Shown here: positions 2,894-51,978 of the stretch, piece after piece | Layout: every line of letters begins with the position of its first letter | How positions within the stretch are numbered: the stretch's first letter is position 1 | IMG/VR virus record: IMGVR_UViG_3300046458_000091 | Location: 1 to 64,000 of that record | DNA length: 64,000 bases | Source of the DNA: a virus | Direction: 5' to 3' (one strand) | Position numbers and translations under genes: made by a program | Notes under the pieces: generated by a model | Told to the model about the DNA's origin: nothing | What the model saw: only the letters and a program-made list of their open reading frames with translations | The model's database searches: none

Positions 2894-3381
2894 ACGCGGC
2901 ACCCTGATGCATTCTTGACCTTAACCAGCTCCAGGGCATGCCGGATCATGTCGGCGCCGGTAGGCCTGCCGAAACGCTTGCGTACGGTCAATTTGGGCCT
3001 TTCACCCTGCGGCGCGGCCTCCCCATCACCACAGGAGTAGTTGGCGAACATCCAGTATGAATCTGCTTTCATCCAGTCCATTGTCTCTGGCGCCGTCCAA
3101 TACATCATGTCCCTGTACGCCTGATAGACGGTGAAATGGTCCTCACCCTCCCCAAAGTAGTCCAGGCCACCGCCGATGCTTGGGACGTGGTTTACACGCA
3201 CCTTAGCTTCGTAGTATCGCCGGACCTCGCCAGCGGTTGGTGGCGGCTTGTCGTCACCCCGCCACAAGCTGACGTACCGTTCGAATTCGTTGTCGATCCA
3301 GATACGGCCGATAACACGCGGCTGACCGACCAGGATGGCGGCCAGGCGCTTGCTCAGCTTCTTTTCAATCCGTGGCTTCAC
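2890..3381 (-). CDS. Hypothetical protein, 163 aa
   Basis: GTG start overlapping the preceding stop (GTGA). Contains many aromatic residues (YWTAPETMDWMKADSYWMF) and a basic C-terminus (RPKLTVRKRFGRPTGADM). Not recognised. It sits in a coupled chain between an Arc-like protein and a LexA-type protein. Confidence 0.6.
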   Translation of the reverse strand: MKPRIEKKLSKRLAAILVGQPRVIGRIWIDNEFERYVSLWRGDDKPPPTAGEVRRYYEAKVRVNHVPSIGGGLDYFGEGEDHFTVYQAYRDMMYWTAPETMDWMKADSYWMFANYSCGDGEAAPQGERPKLTVRKRFGRPTGADMIRHALELVKVKNASGCRV

Positions 3382-3770
3382 TCCGGCGCAACCTGCCCGA
3401 GTGCCGCCAGCTGCGCAACCAACTGAGCCTTGAGGGCCGCCACGGCATCCAGCTGGAGCGCCAATTCGTCGTTATCGTCCAGGTACTTGCGCAGCGCCTG
3501 GATGATCACGCCGTTCATGCTGCGGTCATCCTCGCCGCCACGGCGCGCCACCTCAGCACGCATGCCATCAGGAAGCCGGACAACGAACTTATCCGCGTCC
3601 CGGGAACCCCTCATGTACATAGGCTGGCGCCCCTCTTTGACCGGCATGGCCACCACAGGCGGCGCGGACGTCTCGAAAGTTACCGGCTCCACCTCTTGGC
3701 TGAGGGGTGGCAGGCTGATCATGCGGCGCTCTGCGGCGCGGGTAAGGGCTTCGGCGGCTACTTGGTTCAT
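3378..3770 (-). CDS. Arc-like ribbon-helix-helix protein
   Basis: 130 residues from the ATG at 3770 (longer readings run into the upstream gene in another frame). Residues ~55-95 match an Arc/Mnt-type fold: DADKFVVRLPDGMRAEVA (beta strand and helix 1), then DDRSMNGVIIQALRKYL (helix 2 with the typical SMN). A C-terminal helix rich in Leu and Gln probably mediates oligomerisation. Likely a transcription repressor of the element. Confidence 0.75.
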   Translation of the reverse strand: MNQVAAEALTRAAERRMISLPPLSQEVEPVTFETSAPPVVAMPVKEGRQPMYMRGSRDADKFVVRLPDGMRAEVARRGGEDDRSMNGVIIQALRKYLDDNDELALQLDAVAALKAQLVAQLAALGQVAPE

Positions 3771-4051
3771 GGCTTTACTACCTTGAGGCTTGGTTTCTGT
3801 GGATTGGTAGGGGATACGGGCAGGTCTTTGGCTATGTCGGTGCAAGCGTGGGCCACGGTCAACAGCACCGCATTCGTCAGGGATGGCCCTACATCGCCAA
3901 TCATTGCGCCAGCTGCTGAAGTGATGAATCCCGCCCACAGCTGGCCCTTGGCGTCGTTGTCGAATATGAAATTGTCTGCGGCGACCTGCTGGAACGTCTG
4001 GGCGAGCAGCGCCCACATGTCTTGTCCAAGTTGAACGTTGGGGTTGTTCAT
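3767..4051 (-). CDS. Hypothetical protein, 94 aa
   Basis: Begins at the ATG at 4051 and ends in an ATGA overlap with the Arc-like gene. It has a short glycine/alanine stretch (ITSAAGAMIGDVG) that may pack a helix pair. No family recognised. Confidence 0.5.
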   Translation of the reverse strand: MNNPNVQLGQDMWALLAQTFQQVAADNFIFDNDAKGQLWAGFITSAAGAMIGDVGPSLTNAVLLTVAHACTDIAKDLPVSPTNPQKPSLKVVKP

Positions 4052-16846: not shown

Positions 16847-17262
16847 GCTGCGGCCTCCTTGGTTGCACTGGAGTACTGCTCGCTTTCGTACCACTTGGCC
16901 AGCAACGCATGGACGCCATCGGGAACCACGCGCCCGGACGTCGCGACAAGCCGCGCGCAGGCCTCCACCAGTTCGATTTCCCGGCCGTACTCCGCAATCC
17001 ACCTGGCTTTGTGGCCATGGACCGCGAGCATGTTCGGATTGGGCCCGGTGCCTTGCTGGTGATGACCGGCGCACAGCGGCAGCACGTAGTAATGGGCATG
17101 AGCCTTTGTGCGCCCGTCACAGTGGTGGATTGATACGTGGGCTTGCTCGCTGTGGTCCCTGGGGTGACCGTCGAGCAGGCAGCAGATGCAACCACAGATG
17201 TCGGCAACGTCATGGAACCATTGCCCCTCGGTTTTGTTGGGGTTTTTCCCGGAATGCTGCAT
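16843..17262 (-). CDS. Ref-like RecA-dependent nuclease
   Basis: 139 residues. Contains the HNH-type core of the phage P1 Ref family: CGCICCLLDG, VSIHHCDGRTKAHAHY, LPLCAGHHQQGTG and AVHGHKARW. Ref of P1 cuts DNA at RecA-made D-loops; the same kind of role is inferred here. Start chosen at the ATG just after a CGCCAGAGATAA leader. Its 5' end overlaps the 3' end of the winged-helix gene. Confidence 0.75.
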   Translation of the reverse strand: MQHSGKNPNKTEGQWFHDVADICGCICCLLDGHPRDHSEQAHVSIHHCDGRTKAHAHYYVLPLCAGHHQQGTGPNPNMLAVHGHKARWIAEYGREIELVEACARLVATSGRVVPDGVHALLAKWYESEQYSSATKEAAA

Positions 17263-18331
17263 GGGGGTTTATCTCTGGCGATTGAGGTATGGGTGATGCG
17301 ATTGGGCGGCCCTGAGGGGCCTGGGTTTGCTGTTTCAGCGCACGACTGGCTGCGATGCTCGCCGGGGTGCGCTTTGGTGCTGGTGTTGCTCCCTGGCGCC
17401 CTGGGGGTGGCGCAGAGTTCAAGGCTTCAGCCGCTTTTACGACCTCCGCTACCTTGTTCGCTCGCTTTTTCGCTTCTGCGACTTGCTGAGCTTTCACGGC
17501 GTAGCCTTCGCAGGACTTCAGGAGGGCGCCCACGGGGTGGCGAGCATCGACCAGACTGGGGGCGTCCTCTTTTTCAACGAAGTAGGTGGCCGCAGCTGGG
17601 GCAGCGGCCTGGATTCTTGCAACGACTTTGCCCATCAGTCCGGCCACGGTGACGTTGTGCACCGGCCAGACCTTGTATCGGGCCTTGAACGCGATGGCAT
17701 AGGCACGCCAGGCGGCGTACGTGGCGCTGGTGGGATTGCTCGGGTACTCGGCGGGGTAGCCAGCCGGGACCGTCAGGTCCTCGGGCAGATCGCCTGGCCC
17801 TTCCGCTGCCTGGGGGGAGACAGAAGGTTTTCTAACTGCTTTTTCAGTCTTAAATGATCTTTCAGTCTTATCTAATGTTTCGGGCTTTGCCGTAACCGGT
17901 GGCACCGTTTCCGGCAAATCCGTAAGCGGTTTAACTGGCGATTTCACCGCTTCCGTCTTTTCCGTAAACGGATACTTGCCCTTGGCCCGCAGGTCCCGCT
18001 CATACTCGGCGGCGGCCTCTAGATCAGGGGTTTCAGATACTTCGTACTCAACGCCAACGAACTCGCCGCCCGCGCGGTTGAACCAGCGGTACACGTAGCC
18101 CGCGAGGCGCAGCTCGTTGATGATCAGGTACACCTTGTCGCGTTTCGCGGCCTTCCCGATGGCGCTCGCGGTGCAACTGAGTAGGTCGGTCATCTGGACT
18201 TGCCAGTGGTCCGGCTTGCTCAGCAGATAGACCAGCATGCCCCGGGCTTCCCAGGACAGCCGATCATCACCAATGACGGACATTGGCAGCACATAAAACT
18301 GGGTTCGACGTTCGGCGCGTTTGATGCTCAC
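17210..18331 (-). CDS. Winged-helix replication-type protein
   Basis: 373 residues from the GTG at 18331 (AAGGGGG upstream). The N-terminal ~100 residues look like the winged helix of phage replication organisers: YVLPMSVIGDDRLSWEARGM, then a second helix pair and a wing. The middle is a Lys/Pro/Glu-rich linker; the C-terminal part is helical and Ala/Gln/Pro-rich. May load helicase at a phage origin, but that is inference; the plasmid initiator is a different gene at 54.3-55.1 kb. Confidence 0.6.
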   Translation of the reverse strand: MSIKRAERRTQFYVLPMSVIGDDRLSWEARGMLVYLLSKPDHWQVQMTDLLSCTASAIGKAAKRDKVYLIINELRLAGYVYRWFNRAGGEFVGVEYEVSETPDLEAAAEYERDLRAKGKYPFTEKTEAVKSPVKPLTDLPETVPPVTAKPETLDKTERSFKTEKAVRKPSVSPQAAEGPGDLPEDLTVPAGYPAEYPSNPTSATYAAWRAYAIAFKARYKVWPVHNVTVAGLMGKVVARIQAAAPAAATYFVEKEDAPSLVDARHPVGALLKSCEGYAVKAQQVAEAKKRANKVAEVVKAAEALNSAPPPGRQGATPAPKRTPASIAASRALKQQTQAPQGRPIASPIPQSPEINPHAAFREKPQQNRGAMVP

Positions 18332-18403
18332 AGAGCACCCCCTTGTTGCGGAATGCTTGTTGCTGGGAATTCTTCGGGCACACACGGGCGCTGAGGGGCG
18401 CAA

Positions 18404-18484
18404 TCAGGGTCAGATTGGCTCAGCGAAACGCCGTAAAATGCGGGGGGAACAGGGCTCAGAAGTTTGCAGAACCGGAGCCTGTGG
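18404..18484. other. Upstream part of divergent intergenic region
   Basis: Between the winged-helix gene and the promoter of the candidate RNA. Contains nothing further that I can support. Confidence 0.4.
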
Positions 18485-18490
18485 TATACT
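18463..18490 (+). promoter_or_regulatory. Probable sigma-70 promoter
   Basis: TATACT (18485-18490) with TTTGCA (18463-18468), spacing 16. It would start a plus-strand transcript of about 205 nt that ends at the terminator near 18700. Confidence 0.55.
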
Positions 18491-18536
18491 CGGGCTAGCA
18501 GCAAAGCAGGCCTCCTTGCTGTTCTGGAGGTCTGTT

Positions 18537-18593
18537 GTGTCTGTCGAAAAGCAGGCCCCCTGGGAAGCCGTGGTAGAAAACGCTCAGGCGTAG
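18537..18593 (+). CDS. Short ORF, 18 codons
   Basis: GGAGG lies 6 nt before a GTG that opens a frame encoding MSVEKQAPWEAVVENAQA. The Shine-Dalgarno sequence can be closed by an upstream pairing. Could be a leader peptide or small protein; not proven. Confidence 0.4.
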   Translation: MSVEKQAPWEAVVENAQA

Positions 18594-18661
18594 TCGTCCA
18601 CTACTCTCCACAGGCAAGCATGGATTGCTTACGGGTAGATGGTGTTTTTCCATATGCGTCT

Positions 18662-18702
18662 AAAAAGAACTCTAAACCTTGGCGGGGGCGGGTTCTTTTT
18701 TT
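18662..18702. terminator. Bidirectional terminator
   Basis: AAAAAGAAC (18662-18670) and GTTCTTTTT (18692-18700) enclose a G-rich loop, with A runs on one side and T runs on the other. It can stop both the plus-strand RNA and minus-strand transcription from the gene at 18794-19327. Confidence 0.7.
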
Positions 18703-18793
18703 TCGTCTCCATTTTGAGCGTTGGAGCCGTTTCAGCTCAGCGCGGCGTGCTATATACCATATCCCAAACGCAGCCGTCTAAAGCTTTTTGTCC

Positions 18794-19327
18794 CTATACA
18801 TTTTCCTCAGTTGTCACTTTGCCACCATCAGAATCGCCCGCAACGGCTTGATTTACGGGCTTTTTCGCACGTAAAGCCGCGACCGCTTGCAGGTAAAGAT
18901 TCTTGGAAACCCCACGTTCACCCGACGGAGCGGCGGTGATCTGCGCAAGCTTGGTCTTGCTGCTCTTCACCCACGCCCGATCAAGCTCATACGTCTTGAA
19001 TTTGCGCAGCAGACGTATGGCCCGAACCTTGGATGCGCGCAGCTCCCGTTCCGGCAAGGGGTGGTCAAAGAACCCGAACGGCAAGCGCATGTGCATCTCC
19101 AGCTTGCGCGCCAGCTTCTCGGTGATCGCATACCGGTCGTTGCATGCCACGCTGATCTGATTCGAAAGCGACAGGGCTTCCTTGTCCGTCATGTCGTGGA
19201 ACACATTGAGCCGGACGCCCTCCCCCTTCAGATCCACATACACGTTGAACCGTCGCTGTCGCTCCTGTTGGGCCGCTTTCACGGCGTCCTCATAGGTCTC
19301 AGCGCCTTCAAACACTTCTAAATTCAT
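18794..19327 (-). CDS. Hypothetical protein divergent from ssb
   Basis: 177 residues, charged and helical. Contains a basic central segment (ASKVRAIRLLRKFKTYELDR) and a C-terminal LYLQAVAALRAKKPVN. It is transcribed away from ssb, and the shared promoter region holds a palindrome (19377-19391), so it may regulate the divergent pair. Family not recognised. Confidence 0.5.
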   Translation of the reverse strand: MNLEVFEGAETYEDAVKAAQQERQRRFNVYVDLKGEGVRLNVFHDMTDKEALSLSNQISVACNDRYAITEKLARKLEMHMRLPFGFFDHPLPERELRASKVRAIRLLRKFKTYELDRAWVKSSKTKLAQITAAPSGERGVSKNLYLQAVAALRAKKPVNQAVAGDSDGGKVTTEENV

Positions 19328-51300: not shown

Positions 51301-51939
51301 TCACCGACCCAGCAGGGCCAGCACCTCAGCTTTCAGCTGACGCAGCTCGGATGCCGCAGCACAACGCGGGCGAGTATCCAGGGGCGTGCGGCCAATGGCT
51401 TGGGCCTTGGGGTGTTCCTGGCGAAAAGTGAGTGCGGTCTTCAGAACTGGGAGGTTGTAGCCCGCCAACGTTTCGGCAACCGTGTTGCTTAGGGTGGCGC
51501 CCTTAACTGAGCGCGTAATCAGGAAAACCGCCTGTAGCGTCTTGCCTGTGCCTTCCAGTTCCGCCTGCCGGGCTTCGATCATGTCCACCAGATCAGCGCA
51601 CGCCCACACGTCAAAGGGCGCAGGGGACACGGGGATAATCACCAGATCAGCAACCGCCAGCGTCAATTGAGTGAGTTTTGCCGCCTTGGCCAGGCCGTCA
51701 ACAATCACCAGATCGTTGTGCAGCTTGGGGATTTCAGCGACCAGCTGGGACTGCTTGATAGAGAACACGGTCATTGGCTGCTCTTCGTGCGCCTCGCTCC
51801 ACTCACGCAGGCTGCCCTGTACGTCCGAATCGACCAGAACCACGTCCAGGCCATCCAGCGCCATGGCGCGGCCCAGGCCCGTGACTGTGGTGGTTTTGCC
51901 TGCGCCGCCCTTGGGGTTCAACACCGCCATTACCGTCAT
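51301..51939 (-). CDS. parA: ParA partition ATPase
   Basis: 212 residues from the ATG at 51939: AAAGG lies 9 nt upstream of it but only 1 nt before the alternative ATG at 51948. KGGAGKTTT is the deviant Walker A, VVLVDSDVQGS the Walker A' and LVIVDGLA the Walker B. Short ParA without an N-terminal DNA-binding domain, the kind that pairs with small RHH partners. Moves plasmid copies over the nucleoid. Confidence 0.9.
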   Translation of the reverse strand: MTVMAVLNPKGGAGKTTTVTGLGRAMALDGLDVVLVDSDVQGSLREWSEAHEEQPMTVFSIKQSQLVAEIPKLHNDLVIVDGLAKAAKLTQLTLAVADLVIIPVSPAPFDVWACADLVDMIEARQAELEGTGKTLQAVFLITRSVKGATLSNTVAETLAGYNLPVLKTALTFRQEHPKAQAIGRTPLDTRPRCAAASELRQLKAEVLALLGR

Positions 51940-51978
51940 CTGAAACATCCTTTTGATATATGGGTTCGGCGCAGTGTA

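Follow-up and report, generated by a model that had tools for sequence, protein, structure and literature searches.

A conserved RNA gene, probably structured, beside the initiator-like gene of Pseudomonas phage-plasmids, with a candidate Rsm-binding loop

The window, by which the whole 64,000-nucleotide stretch analysed is meant, spans positions 1-64000 of a virus record that is 82,801 bases long. Its genes include those for a tail sheath, baseplate, Rep3 plasmid initiator, ParA, tyrosine integrase, SSB, RdgC and a Ref-type nuclease; this combination of tail genes with a plasmid initiator, ParA and an integrase marks its source, judged by gene content, as a temperate Pseudomonas phage-plasmid of approximately 83 kb. 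The closest plasmid records are those of P. atacamensis (81 kb), P. putida pKF715C (95 kb) and P. fluorescens DR133 (81 kb), the other closest records being IMG/VR contigs, many of them of about 80-90 kb, and one P. azerbaijanoccidentalis draft contig. The features of the locus described here are as follows, in window coordinates.

17210-18331, minus strand: gene resembling a replication initiator, divergent from the RNA; its PHROGs match is replication initiation protein / DnaD-like loader
18463-18490, plus strand: predicted promoter of the RNA, TTTGCA and TATACT separated by 16 nt, with an extended -10 (TGTGG) that is found in every homolog
18497-18703, plus strand: predicted non-coding RNA of about 207 nt, matched by covariance model R1, its promoter-to-terminator unit kept in 20 homologs
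18499-18545, plus strand: extra 5' stretch containing the pseudoknot, unique to the window copy and with no counterpart in relatives
18537-18593, plus strand: 18-codon GTG open reading frame (ORF) with GGAGG upstream, probably not a product; no counterpart linked to a Shine-Dalgarno (SD) site in relatives
18546-18650, plus strand: possible outer helix P1a, tentative in the window, GAAAAGCA (18546-18553) with UGUUUUUC (18643-18650), a position that fits groups A and C
18561-18613, plus strand: P2, a variable hairpin directly before P3, predicted by folding; a variable hairpin precedes P3 in other groups as well
18616-18630, plus strand: P3 hairpin, AAGC-AUGGAUU-GCUU, with its ANGGA loop at 18620-18624; present in all homologs, with N variable
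18661-18761, minus strand: convergent promoter-like TATGGTATATA (18751-18761) and a predicted RNA of about 84 nt ending at the same terminator
18662-18703, both strands: bidirectional terminator AAAAAGAAC...GTTCTTTTTTTT, a stem with U-tract common to the plus RNA and minus transcripts, in all homologs
18794-19327, minus strand: 177-aa putative DNA-binding regulator, convergent with the RNA, with a weak CI helix-turn-helix profile match

A unit made up of an extended -10 promoter, a structured RNA of 146-217 nt and a bidirectional terminator is found in 20 homologs, which fall into several groups and are carried by plasmids, IMG/VR contigs and one draft genome; wherever the flanks are held, it sits between the same two genes, the 177-aa gene and the initiator-like gene. 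Group A comprises L015, L028, L039, L047, L048 and L053, group B L002-L006, group C L007-L011 and L069, and group D L110 and L111, while L001, the nearest homolog to the window in the DNA search, is kept separate. Several of these 21 sequences (window plus 20 homologs) are near-identical, so that the independent lineages number fewer than 21. In the window, TTTGCA lies at 18463-18468 and the extended -10, TGTGGTATACT, at 18480-18490. By consensus scan alone this promoter is not above chance (1 found, 0.6 expected); promoter, RNA and terminator are credible because the same unit is conserved in the 20 homologs. The original prediction had framed about 205 nt by these two signals, with the RNA as a likely product, and both points are backed by this conservation; it had also doubted the longer frame spanning the terminator, which indeed is not a gene. 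Among relatives, the extended -10 reads TGTGGTATACT, TGTGGTATAGT, TATGGTAAAGT or TGTGGTACAAT and the terminator takes the form AAAAGAACC...GGTTCTTTTTTTT, with the sequence inside the terminator loop conserved in the R1 alignments.

No gene is annotated at the RNA locus in two annotated plasmids (NZ_CP070504 and NZ_AP015032), and in Rfam no family, riboswitches, C4 antisense RNA and others included, exceeded its gathering threshold for the RNA; a permissive Rfam search gave only a sub-threshold match, positioned outside the RNA. The covariance model R1, which was built from group A only, matches the window at 18585-18704 with 34.9 bits, L001 with 42.5 and the group B and C copies with 22.5-36.5, against a background maximum of 20.4 bits in contigs fetched for their terminators; scores outside group A owe part to the terminator and are taken as support, not proof. 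The matches to L110 (37.2 bits) and L111 (34.0 bits) consist mostly of the terminator, with a poor alignment outside it. Over 150 Pseudomonas genomes, R1 returned terminators, one unrelated match of 26.7 bits (L113) and the phage-plasmid itself, and no chromosomal homolog of the RNA. When more hosts were sought with the 177-aa regulator, it was found in only 1 of 400 Pseudomonas genomes. A P. psychrotolerans plasmid (L055, pPRS08-11306) was considered as a further carrier on the basis of its similar gene order and rejected, as it has no R1 match; the 700-bp gap at its positions 3303-4000 has no recognisable RNA but contains repeats of the CTCC/GGAG type and a hairpin-like stretch that includes GGA. 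The locus is very probably a real, structured phage RNA gene, judged from its sequence and that of its relatives, and would add an unannotated conserved RNA family to this group of phage-plasmids.

In single-sequence folding, the stability of the whole RNA exceeds that of shuffles only slightly (z -1.7). Covarying helices support an RNA structure. In its conserved core the variable hairpin P2 is directly followed by P3, and in several groups longer-range helices close this two-hairpin unit. The P1a of group A joins the 5' end to the segment after P3 and has compensatory pairs at columns 8/110 (C-G four times, U-A twice) and 9/109 (G-C three times, U-A twice, A-U once); P3 and P5 also co-vary in this group. 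Doubly changed cells number 10 in group A against 2.9 in shuffles, its covariation score was reached by 0 of 500 shuffles, and slid partners, used as a control, pair in less than half of the cells. Group C has an independent long-range helix at the place of P1a, with one C-G to U-A change. The case for P1a is made by covariation because individual duplex z-scores are weak outside group A, and in the window's own fold the helix is not predicted (probability 0.01). One alignment, A4, in which P1a was misplaced, was excluded.

Over 15 distinct sequences P3 is 98% paired, with two pairs showing double changes and a covariation score reached by 3 of 500 shuffles, and in the window it has a pair probability of 0.95, with its GGA unpaired at 0.95. 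Single-sequence prediction left P3 unfolded in L001 and L002, and one group C consensus fold did not choose it. G-U pairs outnumber A-C oppositions on the plus strand (7 versus 4), weakly favouring this strand as the one transcribed. Two further candidates were dropped after inspection by eye: a kissing contact between the P3 loop and P2, which only L001 and, in part, L048 suggested, and very short minigenes after P3, which occur in group C only and are not conserved.

The promoter itself is straddled by an operator-like inverted repeat, CCGGAG/CTCGGG (18472-18494, around the -10), which is exact as CCCGAG-N11-CTCGGG in L002-L006. Within each group such palindromes are strongly conserved, but they vary from group to group; they can be regarded as candidate repressor operators, as if different repressors acted in each group. 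This pattern also suits a reading in which there is no functional RNA and only DNA elements, namely operators, two promoters and the bidirectional terminator, have been selected; that reading would, however, account neither for compensatory pairs and G-U pairs fitting one strand nor for a near-invariant unpaired loop in the transcribed part, and it is very improbable. In form, the palindrome is CCSGAG-N11-CTCGGG in the window and group B, GCGCGAACGTGTTAACGCGC in group A (L053:3838 and L053:5645) and TGCAAAGCC-N6-GGCTTTGC in group C (L010:8806). In several contigs the group A palindrome has a second, diverged copy, located beyond the Ref gene at about 1.8 kb from the first.

The window copy differs from its relatives by an extra stretch of approximately 45-50 nt, AAAGCAGGCC occurring twice (18503-18512 and 18548-18557), and this stretch holds a pseudoknot and the ribosome site of the 18-codon ORF. 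It had been proposed that the pseudoknot closes this SD site, in the manner of preQ1 and SAM-II riboswitches or IncI repZ control. The complementary pairs do exist, CAGCAA (18499-18504) with TTGCTG (18516-18521) as stem 1 and GGCCTCC (18509-18515) with GGAGGTC (18526-18532) as stem 2, with H-type geometry and 4-nt loops, and the ORF does follow GGAGG. However, H-type pseudoknots whose stems reach at least 6 and 7 pairs arise in 178 of 2000 (about 9%) dinucleotide shuffles of the 215-nt stretch, the 64-kb window contains 43 of them on the plus strand and 13 on the minus strand, and a plain extended hairpin is preferred at the site in single-sequence thermodynamic folding. Both stems are absent in all relatives, an outcome that the original prediction had itself named as refuting, although other stems are conserved there; no comparable SD-linked ORF is found in them, and no Rfam riboswitch family matches, so the likeness to preQ1, SAM-II and repZ holds on paper and in the window copy only. 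Pseudoknot and ORF are left unsupported because both rely on sequence that no relative possesses: the former is probably a chance feature of the window copy, the peptide is a doubtful product, and a pseudoknot-gated leader ORF is scarcely credible.

The surroundings of the RNA recall the cII-oop-O layout of lambda, with a putative regulator, a convergent RNA and an initiator carrying internal iteron-like repeats. As with OOP, a small RNA with its own promoter and terminator lies between a DNA-binding regulator and an initiator, convergent with the former and divergent from the latter, although the identity of the regulator here is weak: the 177-aa protein matches the profile of a phage CI helix-turn-helix only weakly (7nkv, E 3.4e-5), and it has no Pfam or PHROG match and a predicted structure of middling confidence with which a fold search gave nothing. 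The minus extended -10 (TATGGTATA at 18753-18761) is present in all 19 sequences examined, preceded by TTAGACG in groups A and B, L001 and the window. In groups A and B the predicted minus RNA of about 84 nt can form a hairpin, with few compensating changes. Three iteron-like repeats (..CCGTAANCGG) lie inside the initiator-like gene at 17873-17971; the lambda origin is within the O gene, where its repeats are likewise internal.

RNAs of the OOP type lower the mRNA of the regulator through RNase III. By analogy, the RNA or its transcription might dampen the convergent regulator by position, through the shared terminator: polymerases might collide, read-through might yield antisense RNA, or the two RNAs might touch where their 3' ends overlap. 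On this reading the fold would serve stability. The matching layout, the bidirectional terminator with its conserved convergent minus promoter and the conserved sequence within the terminator loop all speak for such control, yet it has no need of a near-invariant loop located about 40 nt upstream of the terminator, and a defining feature of OOP is that it is antisense to the coding region of the regulator (PMC12197685). The present RNA ends at 18703 and the coding region at 18794; because it stops about 90 nt short, with no overlap, it is not an OOP-type antisense, and it is not a proven OOP. It is also longer (146-217 nt versus 77 nt for OOP; PMC12197685) and has as a feature of its own the structured core with a near-invariant GGA-loop hairpin. 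Control by position of this kind, by any of these routes, is considered unlikely.

Of the whole RNA, the P3 hairpin with its near-invariant loop is the part that varies least. In 19 of the 21 sequences this hairpin has the form RGC-7 nt-GCY with an ANGGA loop, while the two members of group D have AGCGC-AGGA-GCGCU; at this site L015 and L053 read CACGGAUG. All four bases (A, U, C and G) occur as N, and what follows GGA is variable too, whereas A and GGA stay constant. Each RNA contains 1-5 GGA motifs, of which one site is conserved and the others are mostly paired, and folding places the P3 GGA as the most exposed in most RNAs. The motif that RsmE reads is A(N)GGAX placed in a loop, best atop a stem, with N counting by its presence and not its identity (PMC4005645); the plasmid protein RsmQ likewise binds AnGGA where it tops a stem loop (PMC9928087). 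With A and GGA fixed and N free, the P3 loop pattern matches, at the sequence level, the recognition signature of RsmA, RsmE and CsrA. The affinity of RsmE drops with extra nucleotides between hexaloop and stem (PMC4005645), and the P3 loop has 7 nt in most copies, one more than the best hexaloop. No CsrA family gene was found in the record of the window or in seven related records, and the partner would therefore be the RsmA or RsmE of the host. Whether the RNA would bind an Rsm protein is, on this evidence, about an even question.

A C-rich stretch 5' of P3 in most homologs offers a different use of the RNA, as a trans-acting sRNA that would use its variable C-rich segments (CCUCC, CCCCC, UCUCC) to base-pair with phage or host mRNAs at purine-rich ribosome sites. 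This stretch is mostly paired within P2, however, and in 18 of 19 cases duplexes with the translation start of the adjacent initiator do not surpass those of shuffles, making base pairing in trans rather improbable. Antisense action on that translation start was itself tried as a candidate and rejected, as L001 gave the only signal.

The reading preferred here is that of a phage sRNA, running from the extended -10 promoter to the bidirectional terminator and most likely acting by binding host Rsm, for which confidence falls slightly short of even. We infer that the RNA would be transcribed from the promoter beside the operator-like palindrome when this is active in the phage cycle, and that P3 would present its A-N-GGA loop to host RsmA or RsmE. 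Bound Rsm could thereby be taken from host or phage mRNAs; alternatively, Rsm could steer the stability and pairing of the RNA itself. That the RNA is a decoy or adaptor coupling the phage replication switch to the Gac-Rsm state of the host is a more tentative proposal, possible yet on balance doubtful. RsmX, RsmY and RsmZ, and the CsrB and CsrC sponges, likewise carry A(N)GGA in hairpin loops, and the Pseudomonas context is shared; they have several GGA hairpins, whereas the present RNA has one that is conserved, is phage-borne, differs in overall fold and has no Rfam match.

Mobile elements are known to touch the host Rsm network, as RsmQ is encoded on a Pseudomonas plasmid and csrA alleles occur on Pseudomonas phages (PMC9928087, PMC7366521). 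Those elements encode a protein, whereas the present phage would supply an RNA ligand only (PMC9928087, PMC7366521), which, if true, would be the RNA counterpart of plasmid-borne Rsm proteins and would link lysogeny or replication control of phage-plasmids to the lifestyle control of pseudomonads. In the open-access literature searched, no report of a phage RNA binding Rsm or Csr was found, and a review of phage sRNAs does not mention CsrA. With this RNA, it can be asked directly whether phages tap the Rsm network by means of RNA.

A second, Rep3-type plasmid initiator (54270-55268) and ParA (51301-51948) are encoded by the same phage in addition to the initiator-like gene, so that its plasmid and lytic replication systems may be separate. 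At the start of the initiator-like gene (18329-18370, minus strand), a pair of alternative hairpins is conserved in most relatives: one can form between (GG)UGCU at the SD site and an AGCA(CC) lying upstream, the other between GUGCUC and GAGCAU across the start codon, an arrangement that looks like translational control of the initiator.
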